Assembly (NCBI GenBank): GCA_951812585.1
Contig: OX638318.1
Coordinates: 2,664,380 to 2,728,379, forward strand
Length of the DNA stretch: 64,000 nt
Direction: 5' to 3'
Source of the DNA: Rhodothermales bacterium
GTDB taxonomy: Bacteria > Bacteroidota > Rhodothermia > Rhodothermales > Bin80
Position numbers and translations under genes: made by a program. Below are positions 18,491-28,420 of the stretch, in pieces. The stretch's first letter is position 1; every line of letters starts with the position of its first letter. The notes beneath the pieces were generated by a model. The model did no database searches and was not told the origin of the DNA. It saw only the letters and a program-made list of their open reading frames with translations.

Positions 18491-21400
18491 TCACGCAGCG
18501 GCCGCAGTACCACGACGTGCGTTGACACGCAGAAAGATGGCCATCAGCGCGGGCACAAGCAGGATCAGAATCGCGGTGGTTATCATGATGCCAACCCCGA
18601 GTGATGCTGCGAAGGGCACCAGGAATTGCGCCTGAATGGCCCGCTCCAGGATGAGCGGCGTGAAGCAAAGGAATGTGGTCACTGAGGTCAGAAAGATGGG
18701 CCTAAAGCGCCCCTTGGCGCCATCGATGATGGCGGCCTTCGCCGAAGCACCTGCGCGAAGCCGATGATCGATAAAGTCGATCATGACCAGCGAATCGTTC
18801 ACAACGACACCGCTGAGACCAAAAAAGCCCATGAAAGATGCGGCACTAACCGCAACGCCCAGCACGAGGTGCCCCAGGACAAGTCCAATGAGTCCGAAAG
18901 GAATGATGGCCATCACAATAAATGGCTTCCGGTAGGACCGCAGCGGAATGGCCAGGAGCGCAAAGATTGCGAGCATCGCAAGCACAAAGCCGCGATATAG
19001 CGCATCCAGCGAATCCAGCTGCTGCTGCTGTTCGCCGCCGAAGGTATAGGTCAGCTCGGGGTTGGCAACAATCAGTTGCGCCAGGATCGTATTCTCAAGG
19101 ATGTCATTTGCTCTTCCGCCCGAAATCACCGCTTCGTTCACATCCGCGGTTACTGTAACGACACGCTGCCGGTCCTGACGCCGGATCGCCGGGGCCGATG
19201 TGCCCATGGTCATCGATGCCACCTGACTGATCGGAACCTCCATTCCCGTGTTAGTGCGAATCAGGTATCTCTCGACATCCGTGATTGCCTTGCGCTCGCT
19301 TTCTGGCAGCCTGGCATAGACGCGCACCTCTTCCCGGTCTCGCTGCATCCGCAAAGCTTCGACGCCAAAAAAAGCTGCCCGCACCTGCTGCGCCATCTCT
19401 TCAACAGTGAGGCCAAGCGTCTGCGCCCTCGGTCTTAGCTCCAGCTGAATCTCTCCGACACCCGGCGTATGATCAGACCGGATGTCAAAGATGCCTGCCA
19501 CGCCGCGGAGGCTGTCCACTACCGCGTCCGCAGTTTCCGCCAGGCGTGCCGGATCGGGGTGTGAAAGCACAACCGCTATAGGGCTGCCTAGATCTATGAC
19601 TTCGCCGCTGAAGGCGATCCCCCGCACATATGGAAGGACCCCCACCGCTTCACGCCAGGCCTGCATCACCGCGATGGTGGACAGGTTCCGCTGCTGGGTA
19701 CTCAAAAGCTTGAATTCGACCGTTGCAATGTTCGCCTGCGGATTCTGCGTGGGCGTAGGATCAAGTCCTCCGCCCTCCACCCGAGGCATCTGGCCGACCG
19801 TTATAGACGTGCCCGACAAGAGCGAAGGGGCGTCGGCCGGCCTCTGATGATCGAGGCTGTCCAAGACTCGCCGTCCCGCCGCTTCCAGTTCCATTGCCAC
19901 CGCGTAGGTTCGCTCCGCTGGCGTGCCGTCCGGCATTTCAAGCGTAGCTGTGATGAAGTCGCCCTCCACGACATCGGCAAAGGTGGTTGGGAGTATGCCC
20001 GCTGGCAATAGAGAGAGGCAGAAAATGAGTAGTCCTATGGACGCGGCTACGATAACGCCTGGATAATCCGTTGCAAATCGCAACGCCCGGCGCAGTGGAC
20101 CATCCAGAAACCAGTTCAGCCACCGGTCCACGAAACCTCGGGTATATGCAAAGAATCGGTCCACCAGATTGGTCGGTATCCAGTCCGGTCCGTGAAGATG
20201 GGACAAATGCCGGGGCAGAATAAAGAGCGATTCGGCCAGCGAAATCAGAAGCATGCTGATAATGATCACCGGCAGCGCGGTCCATACTTCTCCGATTCCC
20301 CCCGGGATAAAAAGCAGTGGCGTGAACGCAGCCACCGAGGTAAGAACCGCGAACGTAAGCGCGTTCTTGATCCGCTTGGCTCCCCGGACCGCGGCAAGGA
20401 CGCCCGGCACTCCCTGCATGCGCTCGTAGTGGATGTGTTCGGCCACGACAATGGCATCGTCGACTATGATGCCGATAGCCAATACGAATGCAAAGAGCGA
20501 GATGGTGTTTATTGCGAGGTCCAGCGTGAGCATCACGGCCAAGGCCCCAACGCCGGAGGTTACAAGGCCGATGACAACCCATAATGCGAGCCGTATTTCC
20601 AGAAACAGGGCTAGCGAGATGAACACCAGCAAAAGACCCAGCAGCCCGTTCCGGACCAGGAGGTTGACCCGCTCCGAATAGGTCTGAGAGTCGTCGTTCC
20701 AGACAGTGACTGAAACGTTCTCGGGCAGGGAAGGGATGATCACACTCTCGAGGTGTTCGTGAACAGCCCGGGCGATGTTCATCACCTGCTCGCCATCAGC
20801 CCGGTACACTTCCACAAACAACGCCGCCTGACCCTGATGCCGAATGATCAGGTCTGTCTGCCGAAACGTGTCGCGAACATCGGCAACTTCCCCAAGGCGT
20901 ACCACAGTTCCATCAATCCGCGCGATAACGGGGATTTCCTCAAAGTCGTGCTGATCATAACGCTGCCCAACCGTGCGGACGCGTACTTCGGCGTCACGTG
21001 TATCGATGCTGCCCGCCGACAGGTCAAGTGAACTGCGACGGATCGCGTGCGCGATATCTTCAAGTGTCAGGCCGAGGGCGCGCAAACGCACCAGCGGTAC
21101 TTCAACGGAAACCTCGTAGTCTTTCGCACCGGTAGTCTCGACCCGGGATATTTCGGACAGTGATTCCAGCTCGTCCTCTACCTGTTTGGCCAACTCCTTC
21201 AAGGAACGCTCCGGGATATCGCCCGAGATTATTAGGCGGATCATGCTGGTGCTGTTGTCCATCTCCCGGAACTGGGGACGCTCGGCTCCACCGGGAAAGG
21301 ACTGTATGCGCCGGACCGCAGTCTGGACTTCGTCCATGGCCTCGCCAATATCCGTGCCGGTCTTCAATTCTACCCTCACTGAGGCCAGCTCTGGAGACGC

Positions 21401-21682
21401 CAATGACTTGACAGACTTGACGCTCTCCAGTGCTTCAACCTGCTCCTCGATCTTGACAATGATTGACTCTTCCACTTCTGTGGGCACCGCACCTGGATAG
21501 ACCACGGATACTTCAATGGTGTTGAAGGGCACCGTAGGCCAGGCTTCCCGCTCCAAGCCGCCGAGCGCGACGAGGCCGGCGGCTATAATGCCAAACATCA
21601 GCAGGTTGGCGGCAACACGGTTGTTCGCCATGTAGGCGATAGGTCCACGCAGCTCGTCCTGAAATGCGTCGTCCCTGTTCAT
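18491..21682 (-). CDS. RND efflux transporter permease
   Basis: A 1063-residue inner-membrane proton/drug antiporter of the RND superfamily. The first membrane helix lies near residues 22-42. A periplasmic porter domain follows (MDEVQTAVRRIQSFP). The central helix block carries the paired aspartates of the proton relay (AIGIIVDDAIVVAEHIHYER) and a second porter domain comes after. Near the C-terminus is the matching helix block FFGLSGVVVNDSLVMIDFID. Drug or lipid substrates cannot be told by eye. It faces the same way as the adaptor gene upstream but is separated from it by 362 bp. Confidence 0.95.
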   Translation of the reverse strand: MNRDDAFQDELRGPIAYMANNRVAANLLMFGIIAAGLVALGGLEREAWPTVPFNTIEVSVVYPGAVPTEVEESIIVKIEEQVEALESVKSVKSLASPELASVRVELKTGTDIGEAMDEVQTAVRRIQSFPGGAERPQFREMDNSTSMIRLIISGDIPERSLKELAKQVEDELESLSEISRVETTGAKDYEVSVEVPLVRLRALGLTLEDIAHAIRRSSLDLSAGSIDTRDAEVRVRTVGQRYDQHDFEEIPVIARIDGTVVRLGEVADVRDTFRQTDLIIRHQGQAALFVEVYRADGEQVMNIARAVHEHLESVIIPSLPENVSVTVWNDDSQTYSERVNLLVRNGLLGLLLVFISLALFLEIRLALWVVIGLVTSGVGALAVMLTLDLAINTISLFAFVLAIGIIVDDAIVVAEHIHYERMQGVPGVLAAVRGAKRIKNALTFAVLTSVAAFTPLLFIPGGIGEVWTALPVIIISMLLISLAESLFILPRHLSHLHGPDWIPTNLVDRFFAYTRGFVDRWLNWFLDGPLRRALRFATDYPGVIVAASIGLLIFCLSLLPAGILPTTFADVVEGDFITATLEMPDGTPAERTYAVAMELEAAGRRVLDSLDHQRPADAPSLLSGTSITVGQMPRVEGGGLDPTPTQNPQANIATVEFKLLSTQQRNLSTIAVMQAWREAVGVLPYVRGIAFSGEVIDLGSPIAVVLSHPDPARLAETADAVVDSLRGVAGIFDIRSDHTPGVGEIQLELRPRAQTLGLTVEEMAQQVRAAFFGVEALRMQRDREEVRVYARLPESERKAITDVERYLIRTNTGMEVPISQVASMTMGTSAPAIRRQDRQRVVTVTADVNEAVISGGRANDILENTILAQLIVANPELTYTFGGEQQQQLDSLDALYRGFVLAMLAIFALLAIPLRSYRKPFIVMAIIPFGLIGLVLGHLVLGVAVSAASFMGFFGLSGVVVNDSLVMIDFIDHRLRAGASAKAAIIDGAKGRFRPIFLTSVTTFLCFTPLILERAIQAQFLVPFAASLGVGIMITTAILILLVPALMAIFLRVNARRGTAAAA

Positions 21683-22044: not shown

Positions 22045-23271
22045 TCATGGTTCGCCTTCCGTGCTCGTCCGAACCGGCATGCCTTCGACTGCCACCTGAA
22101 TGCCACCGATGATTACGGATTGGCCTGCCTCGAGCGCGCCGGTCAGAAAAACTTCGTCATCCGAACGCTGCAGAACGCGCACGGGAATGATGCTCACCGT
22201 ATCGTTGTGTACCACCCAGAGCTCGTTACCAGTTCTTAGCGCCGCCCTGCGCACTCTGAAATACGGGCCCGGAGCGCGACCGTCGATCAGGACTTCCACG
22301 AACTTGCCCACTAGGAGGGGCGTGCTGCCGTAATTGGTGCCCTGTGTGCCCAAGGGAAGGTGCGCACCGCCTGTGAACGGATCCGGCACACGCACGACCA
22401 CCTCGATTGTGCGCGTTTCCTTGTCAAGTGCTGCCTTGGCCCTGTCTACATAGCCGTCCCATGCGAAGCGATCATCGCCGAAATCTGCTATAACGCGGGC
22501 GGGCACGCGTCGAGACGCGTTGCCGGCGCTGAGTGTCCAAAGGCCTGGGATGAGCGCAGCACTAGCATCGGCAAGCGGAGCCACTATTTCCACGGCATCT
22601 GTCGCATACAGACGCCCCACGCTGTGGGCTGACATCACGTATTGACCCACATCTACGAACTCCTCCAGCACGGCGGCGTCGAATGGGGCACGGACCTCAG
22701 TGCGCGCGAGGGCCAACTCTGCCTCTTGGAGCAGTGCGCGGTCTCTGGCCAGCGCGGCTCTGGCGGCCTCCAGCTGCGGTTCCCAAGAGGCCAACGGAGC
22801 GGGGTTTTCCGCCCATTCGCCGCTGGTTTCCAGACGTTTGAACTGTTCATACTGATCACGAGCGATTTGCGCCTCTGCCGCAACCCGCAACAACTCAACC
22901 TCTTGGCTGGCCACGCTGGCACGCGCCTGCTCCACCTTGTTCTGGTAATCGGAATCGTCGATGCGAAAGAGCGGTTGCCCCGCATGAACTCGCCCCCCGC
23001 TTTGGAAATCTGATGCCACCCACACGACTCTGCCCGCGACTTCCGCCGTAACGTCAACTTCAGCGCGTGGGCGAACGGTGCCTGCTCCGTAAACAGGGAT
23101 GGCTCCTTTTCCCGCTGCGACCGTCGTCGTGGTGACGAAAGGAATACGTGTCGGGACAGTCCGTCGGGCAGGCTCGGACCTGAGTGCAACCAAGGTCACA
23201 GCTACGACAGAACACCCGCCGAGTATGGCGCTAGCCAAAATGAAGCTGCGTTTTCTGCTCATGGTTCCCAT
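22045..23271 (-). CDS. RND efflux periplasmic adaptor (HlyD/MFP family)
   Basis: A 408-residue membrane-fusion protein linking the inner-membrane pump to an outer-membrane channel. It has an N-terminal hydrophobic anchor (FILASAILGGCSVVAVTLVAL), then the lipoyl-type half motif AEVDVTAEVAGRVVWVASD. A coiled-coil hairpin follows (about residues 110-190, QARASVASQEVELLRV ... LARDRALLQEAELALART). The second lipoyl half is VRAPFDAAVLEEFVDVGQYV, and the rest is beta-barrel and membrane-proximal domains. An alternative ATG lies three codons in. It pairs with the permease downstream; no intact TolC partner lies in the window. Confidence 0.92.
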   Translation of the reverse strand: MGTMSRKRSFILASAILGGCSVVAVTLVALRSEPARRTVPTRIPFVTTTTVAAGKGAIPVYGAGTVRPRAEVDVTAEVAGRVVWVASDFQSGGRVHAGQPLFRIDDSDYQNKVEQARASVASQEVELLRVAAEAQIARDQYEQFKRLETSGEWAENPAPLASWEPQLEAARAALARDRALLQEAELALARTEVRAPFDAAVLEEFVDVGQYVMSAHSVGRLYATDAVEIVAPLADASAALIPGLWTLSAGNASRRVPARVIADFGDDRFAWDGYVDRAKAALDKETRTIEVVVRVPDPFTGGAHLPLGTQGTNYGSTPLLVGKFVEVLIDGRAPGPYFRVRRAALRTGNELWVVHNDTVSIIPVRVLQRSDDEVFLTGALEAGQSVIIGGIQVAVEGMPVRTSTEGEP

Positions 23272-24194: not shown

Positions 24195-25211
24195 ATGATG
24201 GGTTCGCTTCCACCGTTTCCTGAGGGCTGGTACTTTGTCGCTAGCCGCCAGTCCATCCTTAAGAAGAAGCTGATACAGAAGACGTGGATGGGCGAAGAAA
24301 TTGTCGCATGGTGCGACGATGATGGCCAAATCTGCGTAAGCAGTGCGATATGCCCGCATTTAGGGTCCAACCTTGGACCGGGCTCTGGTGCTGTGGTGCA
24401 TGATGGGTGCCTCGTATGCCCGTTTCACGGCTACGCATTCGCGGTCGATGGCAACTGTGTTGCCACGCCCTATGCTCCTCCACCCAAGGCCACGCGTCTG
24501 AAGGTATTTGAAACCAGGGAAGTCCTTGGCATAGTCTTCGCGTGGTGGGGCATCGATGGGCGTCCGCCGCAATGGCACTTTCCAGAAGATCCCGAGACGG
24601 GTCCCGAATGGAGCAGGCTAAGATTCCAGACCATTCGATTCAAGGGACACCCTCAGGAAACGACCGAGAACGCTGTAGATCTGGCACATCTGCGGTACGT
24701 TCATGGCTTCCATAACGTTAGCCGCGCGGATCCCCTGGTTGTGAATGGCGCCTTCCTTGTCAGCAATTTCAACTTCAAGCGCACCCAGCGTATCGCAAAG
24801 GTGGTGAACATCGACTTTGACATCGCCGCGCGTACGGATATCTATGGTCTCGGCTATTCGCTCGTAGAGATTCATGAGCGCTCCATTGAGATGCGCGCGC
24901 GGTTATGGGTGCTTGCCACACCTGTCGACGGCACGGTCATTGACCTGGTGCTGGTCAGCCAGGTGCGGGAGATACGCAAGCCGAAGCGGCCCATTGTCGG
25001 TATAGGATTTCTTCCGCTGCGTGTCCGCCACAGGATCATGAACAAATTCCTGGTGAGCATTCAAAGACAAGAAGTGATGCAGGATGTGGACATATGGGAG
25101 CACAAACGCTACGTGGCTCGTCCAAGACTGTGTCGGTCCGATGGGGAGATCGGCAGGTTCCGGCGTTATTGCAAACAGTTCTACTTGCCTGATTCCGGCT
25201 ACAACGCCTAA
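24195..25211 (+). CDS. Rieske non-heme iron oxygenase
   Basis: A 338-residue oxygenase component. The Rieske [2Fe-2S] ligands are visible as C53-P-H55 and C75-P-F-H78 (ICPHLGSNLGPGSG ... GCLVCPFHGYAF). The catalytic mononuclear iron site is N159-x2-D162-x2-H165-x4-H170 (ENAVDLAHLRYVHGFHNV). The C-terminal domain lacks aromatic-ring dioxygenase hallmarks. The overall plan (short sequence, Rieske domain first, histidine-rich helix about 85 residues later) resembles the sterol/steroid-type group that includes KshA and the cholesterol desaturases DAF-36/Neverland. No ferredoxin or reductase gene is nearby. It starts with ATGATG, and the substrate is unknown. The next gene, a P450 fusion, lies 1.2 kb downstream on the same strand. 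Confidence 0.88.
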   Translation: MMGSLPPFPEGWYFVASRQSILKKKLIQKTWMGEEIVAWCDDDGQICVSSAICPHLGSNLGPGSGAVVHDGCLVCPFHGYAFAVDGNCVATPYAPPPKATRLKVFETREVLGIVFAWWGIDGRPPQWHFPEDPETGPEWSRLRFQTIRFKGHPQETTENAVDLAHLRYVHGFHNVSRADPLVVNGAFLVSNFNFKRTQRIAKVVNIDFDIAARTDIYGLGYSLVEIHERSIEMRARLWVLATPVDGTVIDLVLVSQVREIRKPKRPIVGIGFLPLRVRHRIMNKFLVSIQRQEVMQDVDIWEHKRYVARPRLCRSDGEIGRFRRYCKQFYLPDSGYNA

Positions 25212-26404
25212 CCTGCGCTGCGCTCGGGTGGTCGTAATGTCCACACTTCAAATTGCAGCGCGCGCTATCTCACAAGGCAGCCGGGTCGTACAGGCTTTTC
25301 CCCACAGGCGTACGGCAAGTGGACCTTACGTGCGCCTGTGGGATACGAACGCTTGTTTTCCTCAGTTGTGCTGCTAAGCGCTTGTTCGTCGGGGCCTATA
25401 AGACTATTCCCGGTTTGCGTCGCGGCTGTGGGCATGGGCGCAGATGATTGTTGTGCGTTCAGAGAAGCGTCAGCAGCGTACGGCCAGGATCCTCAGATAC
25501 CCACGAGATGCCCAAGCCGCCTGCGGAGGGTGATCGCGGCAGTATGTCAGATCTGGCGTCGTTTCGCACTGCACACCTTGCCCTACAGCTGCAACTTTGC
25601 TTCGCTCCCTGTCAACTCAGTACCTGTTGGGCCACAGCTTGAGTGAAGGCGAAATTGCTGCATCAGCGGAGCGGCCAGGCACATGCCGCCTCCAGGGATT
25701 GCCAGCAGCTAATCTTCAAGGTGCGAGAATGCGAGAAATCGCAAATGGGAAACAGCGTGGCAATCTGCTTGGTGCTGCCCGTTGTTGCCGAACCCGTATG
25801 CAAGCTTGGAGGCCGAAGCCATTCCGTCCAGCAGCCGGCTGGCATCACCCTCTCTGTTCAGCCATGTTCTGCTTCTTATATTCCAAGGGTGGCGCAATTG
25901 GGAGAGGCGCGTTCTGGCCTGCATCATGTGCGCCAGGCGACCGCGTGCGGCTGGATCAGAGCGGTCAATTTGAGCGAGTTACAGAAATAGGGATGGATTG
26001 AGCCGGCAAGGCATCCCTGTTTGCGGACGGTTGATTTTGGCCAACATTTTGTCCACACAATTCGGTACTTTACCTGCGCGGGAACAGGCTGTAGCTTAGG
26101 AGTGCGTCGCTTGTTGATCAACTGCTAAGAGGCTTGGTTCAGGCTGTGTTCGATGCTGCCAGGCAGCTAGGTGCACTGCGTCCGTCTGATGATGCGGAAG
26201 TGGTTCAGCAACTGAGCATGTGCCGTGTGCAGCTACTGGTCAAGTCAAGCGTGATTGCGAGCAAAACAGTGACAAGCAATCACACCACAGGGTATTTGCC
26301 AATGCGGTGCGTCGGCTACGTGTTGAACCGGACCACTGAATTGGTGCGCAGGTTCGTCCCGTCCAATGCGCACAACACAGGTTGTACTGTTCACCAATGA
26401 TAGC
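25212..26404. other. Gene-poor tract between Rieske oxygenase and GPP34-P450
   Basis: About 1.2 kb with no gene I can support. Frames of 100-135 codons (25597-26001 plus, 25643-25990 plus) have irregular composition and no motif. No terminator or clear promoter was recognised. Decayed coding sequence is likely but no parent family can be named. Confidence 0.45.
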
Positions 26405-28420
26405 ATGTCCATGTTTCCCCCAATACGTATTGCCGAAGAGCTGATTCTCCTCATGCTGGACGAACGCAGCGGCTATCTGGATATGGTGCCGAACTGGGAC
26501 TTTTCCTGCACGATAGCAGGCGCCGTACTGGCTGATCTCGCTCTGGAGAATCGCATCGACACGGACCTGGAGCAGCTGATACTGGTGGATCCCAGTCCGA
26601 CCGGAGACACTCTGCTTGATACAATACTACAGGAGATAGCTGCGTCCGAAGAGGCCTCAGATACCCAATTCTGGATTGAGCGGAATGCGAGCCGGTCCGA
26701 TGATATCGTGATGACCGCGCTCGACCGTCTGGTTGACAGGAATATCCTCGACTACGAGCCAGGGGGTTTCTGGGGACTTTCACGCTCGGTCATGCGGTCG
26801 GGAACCTATCCGACTTCCGACCTGAAGACTCGCAAGGAAGCCAAAGCAAGGGTTCTGAACGTCATCTTGAACGACACTATCCCGGACCCGCGCGATGCTA
26901 TACTCATTGCCTTGATGCATACGGCGGGCGGATTCAAAAAAATGCTTGAGCATGAAGATTACGAGGAGAGGCTTGAATGGATCGAGACGATCACTAAGCT
27001 GGAGCTGATAGGGCGCACGGTTGCCGGCGCGGTGAAGAACAGCGCCATCGCGCCCAGAACGCGCCGATTTTTACAAACCAAGCCAATCCCACGGCTCCGT
27101 ATCACTGAGATCTTGCGCCAGCGTGACTTTTTCATCGGCAACATTGCCAAGGCGATGTGCGGGATCTACCAGACGCACGGGCCGGTTGTTAAGATTCCCA
27201 TGAAGATGGGCAAGGCAAAGGCCGTCGCCTTAATCGGGCCGGGAATCAATCGGTGGGTCAACAAGCACGGACGTTTTTACCTCCGGTCAAAAGATTACAT
27301 CGAGAAGTTCGAGCAAGCGTTCGGTGCATCCAAAACGCTGCCGGGCCTGGATGGTGCGGAGCACCACAAGATGCGAAAGGCACTACGGCATGTGTATTCC
27401 CGCACTGCCTTGGCAGATCGGCTCCCGGAAATGATTGATCTCTGCAGACGGTCACTGGGCCAGTGGAAGAAGGGTGATGTGTTTGGTGCGACTGAAATGT
27501 TTCAGAATCATATCAGCAGTCAGGTGTCGCACCTTTCCATAGGTGTCGACTGCAGTCATTACGTGGACGAATTGCTGAAGTATCAGCACCGTGCGCTGAC
27601 CGTACACGTTCAGGGGGCGATGCCGAAGTTTATGCTTTCAACGCCCAAAATGAGGCGTTACAGACAGCGTGTTGTTGAGCTCAAAGAGGCGATAAGTGCA
27701 TCGCACACGCCGGCGCAGAGGAAGGGAAAAACAATGGATATTCCCGACGCTATTCTGGCGCTCCACAAGAATGATCCGATGTTTATGCCGGAAACCGACA
27801 TGACCTTTCCCTTTGTCGCGTCCATGGTTGCAAGCATCTATCTTGGAAGTGCGCTGAGCTTTGCAATCTTTTGTCTGGTCAACCACCCGGACGTTTACGA
27901 GAGAGTCCACCGTGAAGCCTCCTTGCTATTCAGTAACGGACGATTGCCAGAAGCCAAGGACTTTAACTTGGCCAGCATCGATGTTGCGCACCGGGCCTGC
28001 CTGGAGGCCCAGCGACTGTACCCGGTGATTCCATGGCAGCTGAGAACGGTGATGAACCAGTGCACGGTCAGCGGTTTCGAAATACCCGTTCATACGCGGT
28101 TGCTCATTTGCCAGACCGCCCCCCACTATATGGAGGACCTGTTTGAGAATCCGAGTGCGTTCGACATAGACAGGTACCTTCCAGATCGGGCCGAGCATAC
28201 GGTGCCGGGTGCCTACGCGCCCTATGGGTTGGGGACGCACACCTGCCTCGGAAACCGGTGGGTGGAACTCCAGATGGCGGTGAATCTTCTTCTGATTGTA
28301 TACCATCTGAAGCTGGAGATGGCGTCTGAAAAATACAAGCTCCGCATCAATCCATTTCCGACTTGCGCCCCGGATAAGAAGCTGAAGCTTCGTGTCGCTG
28401 AAGTAACGAATCCCGTCTGA
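26405..28420 (+). CDS. GPP34-cytochrome P450 fusion protein
   Basis: A 671-residue two-domain protein. Residues about 1-220 match the GPP34/GOLPH3 fold family: IRIAEELILLMLDE at the start, the helix AGAVLADLALENRID, then ILVDPSPTGDTLLDTIL. The remainder is a cytochrome P450. The K-helix ExxR is E534-A-Q-R537 (CLEAQRLYPVIPW), and the heme loop YGLGTHTCLG puts the iron-ligating Cys near 614, with Tyr where Phe is usual. The I-helix reads VASIYLGSALSFAIF, so the normal acid-Thr pair appears absent. GPP34 domains bind phosphoinositide membranes in eukaryotes; a membrane-targeting role here is inference. The ATG at 26405 is chosen; 26366 would add 13 residues. No redox partner is adjacent. Confidence 0.88.
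   Translation: MSMFPPIRIAEELILLMLDERSGYLDMVPNWDFSCTIAGAVLADLALENRIDTDLEQLILVDPSPTGDTLLDTILQEIAASEEASDTQFWIERNASRSDDIVMTALDRLVDRNILDYEPGGFWGLSRSVMRSGTYPTSDLKTRKEAKARVLNVILNDTIPDPRDAILIALMHTAGGFKKMLEHEDYEERLEWIETITKLELIGRTVAGAVKNSAIAPRTRRFLQTKPIPRLRITEILRQRDFFIGNIAKAMCGIYQTHGPVVKIPMKMGKAKAVALIGPGINRWVNKHGRFYLRSKDYIEKFEQAFGASKTLPGLDGAEHHKMRKALRHVYSRTALADRLPEMIDLCRRSLGQWKKGDVFGATEMFQNHISSQVSHLSIGVDCSHYVDELLKYQHRALTVHVQGAMPKFMLSTPKMRRYRQRVVELKEAISASHTPAQRKGKTMDIPDAILALHKNDPMFMPETDMTFPFVASMVASIYLGSALSFAIFCLVNHPDVYERVHREASLLFSNGRLPEAKDFNLASIDVAHRACLEAQRLYPVIPWQLRTVMNQCTVSGFEIPVHTRLLICQTAPHYMEDLFENPSAFDIDRYLPDRAEHTVPGAYAPYGLGTHTCLGNRWVELQMAVNLLLIVYHLKLEMASEKYKLRINPFPTCAPDKKLKLRVAEVTNPV

Follow-up and report, generated by a model that had tools for sequence, protein, structure and literature searches.

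A family of bacterial GPP34–cytochrome P450 fusion proteins whose gene neighbourhoods suggest a possible new pathway of sterol-like lipid modification and export

GOLPH3 and Vps74 are separate COPI/glycosyltransferase adaptors, and the pocket with which GOLPH3 contacts phosphatidylinositol-4-phosphate (PI4P) is formed by residues W81, R90, R171 and R174. Among bacterial P450s, the CYP51 of Methylococcus is fused to a ferredoxin. For sterol-handling gene sets, the closest described systems are BstA of Methylococcus, which provides a precedent for RND transport of bacterial sterols (PMC10942540), and the clusters of steroid genes (CSGs) of Ircinia symbionts, whose core consists of ERG24, CYP51 and OSC (PMC9531527). 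In the literature searched, an open-access subset, no description of a fusion between GPP34 and a P450 was found, which agrees with the initial annotation of the gene studied here, where no described function was known for such a protein. The sponge sterol papers, including PMC9531527, likewise made no mention of it in the portions covered.

The fusion gene lies in a stretch of 64,000 nucleotides from a Rhodothermales bacterium, referred to below as the window, in which the RND, membrane-fusion protein, Rieske and fusion genes stand in a row. The features are as follows:

18491..21682, minus strand: AcrB-type RND permease (family member scanned in L033; neighbour at 51 of 94 fusion loci)
22045..23271, minus strand: RND-exporter membrane-fusion protein, HlyD type (43 of 94 loci; family member scanned in L037)
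24195..25211, plus strand: Rieske oxygenase with a KshA_C domain (Pfam; 42 of 94 loci)
26405..28420, plus strand: GPP34–cytochrome P450 fusion protein, 671 aa (open frame 26366-28420, start at 26405)
26429..27034, plus strand: GPP34 (GOLPH3-like) domain, residues 9-210 (Pfam PF05719, E 2.3e-35)
27035..27136, plus strand: inter-domain stretch, residues 211-244, with a conserved KPIP motif (length near-constant across 72 relatives)
27137..28357, plus strand: cytochrome P450 domain, residues 245-651 (Pfam PF00067, E 1.1e-31)
27830..27850, plus strand: altered I-helix motif A-S-I-Y-L-G-S, residues 476-482, replacing A-G-H-H-T-S-S of CYP51
28004..28015, plus strand: ExxR motif, E534-R537 (invariant in 72 relatives)
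28223..28252, plus strand: heme-binding loop YGLGTHTCLG (Cys614 codon 28244-28246)

The initial annotation had read this gene as one uninterrupted frame joining a GPP34-type domain to a P450 with ExxR and a Cys heme loop, and the results upheld that reading, including its coordinates. The GPP34 match, expected within residues 1-220, covers residues 9-210 and reaches 122.9 bits against a cut-off of 29.1, the P450 match is likewise far above its cut-off, and both P450 motifs are present and invariant among 72 relatives. AlphaFold2 modelled the whole protein with a pLDDT of 89.2 and a pTM of 0.84, and the N-terminal domain alone with a pLDDT of 90.2. In Foldseek searches, the predicted N-terminal fold matched GOLPH3 (1.4e-8, TM 0.75) and Vps74 (1e-6) and nothing else at E<1e-3, and the C-terminal part was a P450 fold. 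Neither a frameshift nor misassembly explains the join, as 72 aligned fusions from independent assemblies share one architecture and a near-constant linker. The 3.2 Mb genome of the window contains a single GPP34 and a single P450, namely the two halves of this protein. Rfam, promoter and terminator scans around the gene yielded nothing informative, and the stretch of ~1.15 kb that separates the Rieske gene from the fusion (25212-26365) carries no convincing gene.

Full-length fusions were found at no fewer than about 88 distinct loci in about ten bacterial phyla (by record title, Pseudomonadota, Acidobacteriota, Rhodothermota/Bacteroidota, Chloroflexota, Binatota, Nitrospirota, Latescibacterota, Gemmatimonadota and Verrucomicrobiota); the 94 loci of the neighbourhood counts correspond to these about 88, because six genomes are present in both of the collections searched. 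A single-protein query against the GTDB contigs gave no matches and a multi-sequence alignment query was required, with which at least 79 fusion loci at 43-74% identity were detected, ruling out an oddity of a single genome. Among 395 genomes of the window's phylum, the architecture survey revealed 13 fusion carriers belonging to two families of one order. The fusion tree agrees only partially with the phyla, and Acidobacteriota hold near copies of the window gene. The divergences of the GPP34 and P450 halves are correlated (r = 0.905; the largest of 500 permutations gave 0.17), and the linker measures 15-17 residues in the 72 aligned fusions, except for two of a divergent second group, which have 26-27. 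The joint divergence of the domains and the nearly constant linker length are what one old fusion event would be expected to leave, and the origin of the family looks like such an event. Judged by its sequence, the window gene is a member of a distinct, old GPP34–P450 family that is real and widely conserved.

Several further observations concern the diversity of these genes. The second group (L044-L048), at about 30% identity, has canonical I-helix motifs, and an acyltransferase_3 gene follows second-group fusions at three loci. Both groups occur together in four genomes (G207, G258, G278 and G392). Two fusion genes lie close together at L078, L095, L105 and L126, the paired copies at L095 and L126 coming from different subclades. 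At a contig end (G270:C57:3-227) there is a C-terminal fragment belonging to the first group of fusions (55% identity). In another family of the phylum, a 955-aa frame (L052:1-2865, minus strand, G040) joins GPP34 to a molybdopterin oxidoreductase and is a second kind of fusion between GPP34 and a redox enzyme.

Analysis of the neighbourhoods showed that AcrB/HlyD/NodT-type exporter genes are the commonest neighbours. Besides the permease, membrane-fusion protein and Rieske genes counted above, an SMT-like methyltransferase occurs at 32 of the 94 loci, an outer-membrane efflux protein at 30 and a flavoprotein, which we take to be COG2907-like, at 23; the next commonest family reaches 7, and no single family is found at all 94. 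The order and orientation of these genes vary between loci, so they are linked but do not form a single fixed operon. The flavoprotein gene of the window genome lies away from the fusion, and its product shares 74% identity with the f12 copy and 79% with copies from other phyla. None of the eight Chloroflexota loci has RND, membrane-fusion or outer-membrane genes, and five of them have an MMPL protein. An MMPL-family transporter adjoins the fusion at L124, L127, L129, L137, L144 and L145, mostly in Chloroflexota; the L124 copy matched Patched and sterol-sensing-domain models, and the scanned Chloroflexota example matched sterol-sensing and HpnN-type models.

Two of the linked enzymes resemble enzymes of steroid metabolism. 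The neighbouring Rieske protein has both Rieske and KshA_C domains, as in steroid-type Rieske oxygenases, and its best solved relative is the 3-ketosteroid 9alpha-hydroxylase KshA (1e-25); it is not the 4beta-methylsterol monooxygenase SdmA, because it scored 26.5 bits with the NCBIfam model of that enzyme, far below the cut-off of 600. The SMT-like neighbour carries a Sterol_MT_C domain (PF08498, E 2.9e-17) and keeps the signature segments YYDL...WGxSxHFAP and YAIESTCHAPDK, so that by domain and sterol-binding segments it is a predicted sterol 24-C-methyltransferase. Sterol_MT_C occurs in 9 of the 395 genomes of the phylum, and all nine are among the 13 fusion carriers (Fisher 1e-15, a value that ignores kinship and comes from two related families of the phylum). 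A strong OSC-type cyclase (E < 1e-50) was detected in four genomes, again all among the 13. In one of the carriers (G392), a steroid cluster scanned in full comprises a squalene epoxidase–OSC fusion, a CYP51-type P450, ERG24, a Rieske protein and an SMT, with the epoxidase, SQHop_cyclase_N and SQHop_cyclase_C in one 1139-aa frame (L177:5149-8568). Cyclase matches in frames of similar length were also seen at L178:5674-9204 and L176:6468-9962. In G270 and G301, a CYP51-type P450 stands beside an OSC-containing frame (1164-1179 aa), with Sterol_MT_C matches nearby. The ERG24-CYP51-OSC core is absent at the fusion loci themselves, the cyclase lying elsewhere in 4 of the 13 carrier genomes. An SMT and a sterol cyclase were looked for in the window genome and in several other carriers and none was detected; there, therefore, the substrate would be imported or would be something else.

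Because the fusion adjoins sterol-type enzymes and an exporter, the data point to an undescribed pathway that modifies and exports sterol-like lipids. We propose, giving it about an even chance, that a membrane-docked P450 tailors a sterol-like lipid together with the linked enzymes and that the linked transporter moves the product outward. The P450 half would modify a sterol or sterol-like triterpenoid supplied by the symbiont community or the host, the Rieske oxygenase, SMT-like methyltransferase and flavoprotein would act together with it, and the RND exporter, or MMPL in Chloroflexota, would carry the product out. The GPP34 half would dock the heme domain at the cytoplasmic face of the membrane or at a membrane partner, near the hydrophobic substrate, by a route other than the PI4P pocket of GOLPH3. 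The initial annotation had suggested that the P450 is held at, or acts on, a particular membrane lipid; the sterol-type neighbours fit this idea, and only PI4P as that lipid is not supported. Several points weaken the sterol proposal: the window genome has no detectable SMT or cyclase, the similarity of the P450 and the Rieske protein to steroid enzymes is remote, the fused P450s form a clade separate from the cluster CYP51s, the I-helix is altered, every neighbour family is absent somewhere, the co-occurrence comes from two related families, and drug efflux is likewise a role of generic RND exporters.

An alternative that we consider rather unlikely is detoxification, in which the P450, Rieske protein and flavoprotein would oxidise hydrophobic toxins of the host or community, such as terpenoids or brominated compounds, the RND pump would expel the products, and the resemblance to steroid enzymes would reflect hydrophobic substrates only. 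The predominance of AcrB/HlyD/NodT-type exporters among the neighbours is consistent with it, as is the loose proximity of the P450 to terpene oxidases in NCBIfam, where pentalenene oxygenase matched at 7.8e-23, far below the cut-off. However, at 32 loci a methyltransferase bears the C-terminal domain and the signatures of SMTs, which would be unexpected in a detoxification module, as would the confinement of SMT to fusion carriers among the 395 genomes.

The reaction of the P450 half deserves separate consideration. By profile, its nearest solved relatives are bacterial CYP51s, the best being that of Methylococcus (2.1e-44), at about 19-20% identity. A quick tree grouped the fused P450s in a single clade (support 100), distinct from three CYP51-type P450s that belong to steroid clusters in related genomes. 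Membership of the CYP51 family was rejected on this basis, although bacterial CYP51s are the closest among solved P450s; a deep sister relation may exist, the branches being long. The residues G608, G610, H612, C614 and G616 of the heme site, together with E534 and R537, are invariant in 72 sequences, in accordance with ExxR and the heme-loop signature FxxGx[RH]xCxG, whose Phe is often Tyr. The missing Arg in this loop was rejected as a sign of degeneration, since CYP51 also has His there. The I-helix is altered: ASIYLGS aligns with AGHHTSS of CYP51, and one residue is deleted after it; of 72 sequences, 10 retain the Thr and 62 have replaced it, and the preceding position, an acid or His elsewhere, is Tyr in 68 of 72. 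Most fusions lack the acid/alcohol pair of oxygen activation, for which exceptions are known within the P450 superfamily. The motifs form a graded series from GLDTTAS/GLHTTAS in the second group through AGHY-TGS or AGHY-LGS in an intermediate group to ASIY-LGS. Because of the altered I-helix, ordinary monooxygenation by the fused P450 is in doubt. It might even be that the heme domain is no longer a monooxygenase but a peroxygenase, an isomerase/dehydratase or a non-catalytic lipid sensor, with GPP34 as its membrane contact. The changed residues and the graded series speak for this, as does the retention of the heme Cys, ExxR and fold, whereas some P450s without the Thr hydroxylate with the help of the substrate, as exemplified by P450eryF, and catalysis is favoured by the strongly conserved heme site; we regard this reading as rather improbable.

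The fusion carriers, which are known from MAGs, are apparently mostly marine-sponge symbionts. This habitat is suggested by a sponge named in one record title (L098), by the genome name prefixes RHO, COS, CAR and APA, which fit the demosponges sampled in PMC8163846, by the match to published MAG sets and by the Ircinia symbiont classes with steroid clusters, which correspond to the fusion host classes (PMC9531527). We put forward, tentatively and as a somewhat unlikely extension of the sterol proposal, that sponge symbionts share horizontally, across phyla, a pathway in which a GPP34-docked P450 of altered oxygen chemistry, a steroid-type Rieske oxygenase, a diverged SMT and a flavoprotein remodel and export holobiont sterols. 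If this were true, bacteria would contribute to the unusual sterols of sponges. The question of whether symbionts produce or remodel the sterols of sponges bears on the debate over 24-isopropylcholestane as the 'oldest animal' biomarker (PMC10070321).

In the GPP34 half, R90, R171 and R174 of GOLPH3 align with A38, D99 and V102, and the corresponding columns of the family are, rare exceptions apart, not basic. Since the contact arginines are replaced by Ala, Asp and Val, the binding of PI4P was not borne out, and tethering of the P450 to PI4P or a close phosphoinositide is highly improbable despite the clear GPP34 homology and fold and the Trp kept near W81 of GOLPH3 (W31, 68 of 72 members).

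The fusion places bacterial GPP34 domains in a concrete enzymatic setting, offers an expressible and assayable protein with a changed oxygen-activation site, and adds a cross-phylum, predicted sterol-type enzyme set with its own exporter. Compared with GOLPH3 and Vps74, it shares a GPP34 domain above the Pfam cut-off and a predicted fold with matches to these two proteins only, but this domain is part of a bacterial cytoplasmic P450 fusion and has lost the PI4P-contact arginines. With the Methylococcus CYP51–ferredoxin protein it shares a P450 fused to another domain and a His two residues before the heme Cys; however, GPP34 is attached N-terminally in place of the ferredoxin fusion, and the I-helix, the low identity and the separate clade set it apart. 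As in Methylococcus BstABC, RND-superfamily transporter genes are co-localised with Rieske genes, which in that system are sterol-modifying (PMC10942540), whereas BstA is HpnN-like and the fusion loci have an AcrB-type RND permease with a membrane-fusion protein and an outer-membrane channel, or MMPL in Chloroflexota. Finally, the Ircinia CSGs (PMC9531527) resemble the fusion loci in that sterol-type genes occur in many sponge-bacterial phyla, with an SMT close by and indications of horizontal transfer, and in the common classes Rhodothermia, Gammaproteobacteria, Dehalococcoidia, Binatia and Nitrospiria, but differ in that the fusion loci combine Rieske, SMT-like, flavoprotein and RND/MMPL genes in place of a core with OSC and ERG24.
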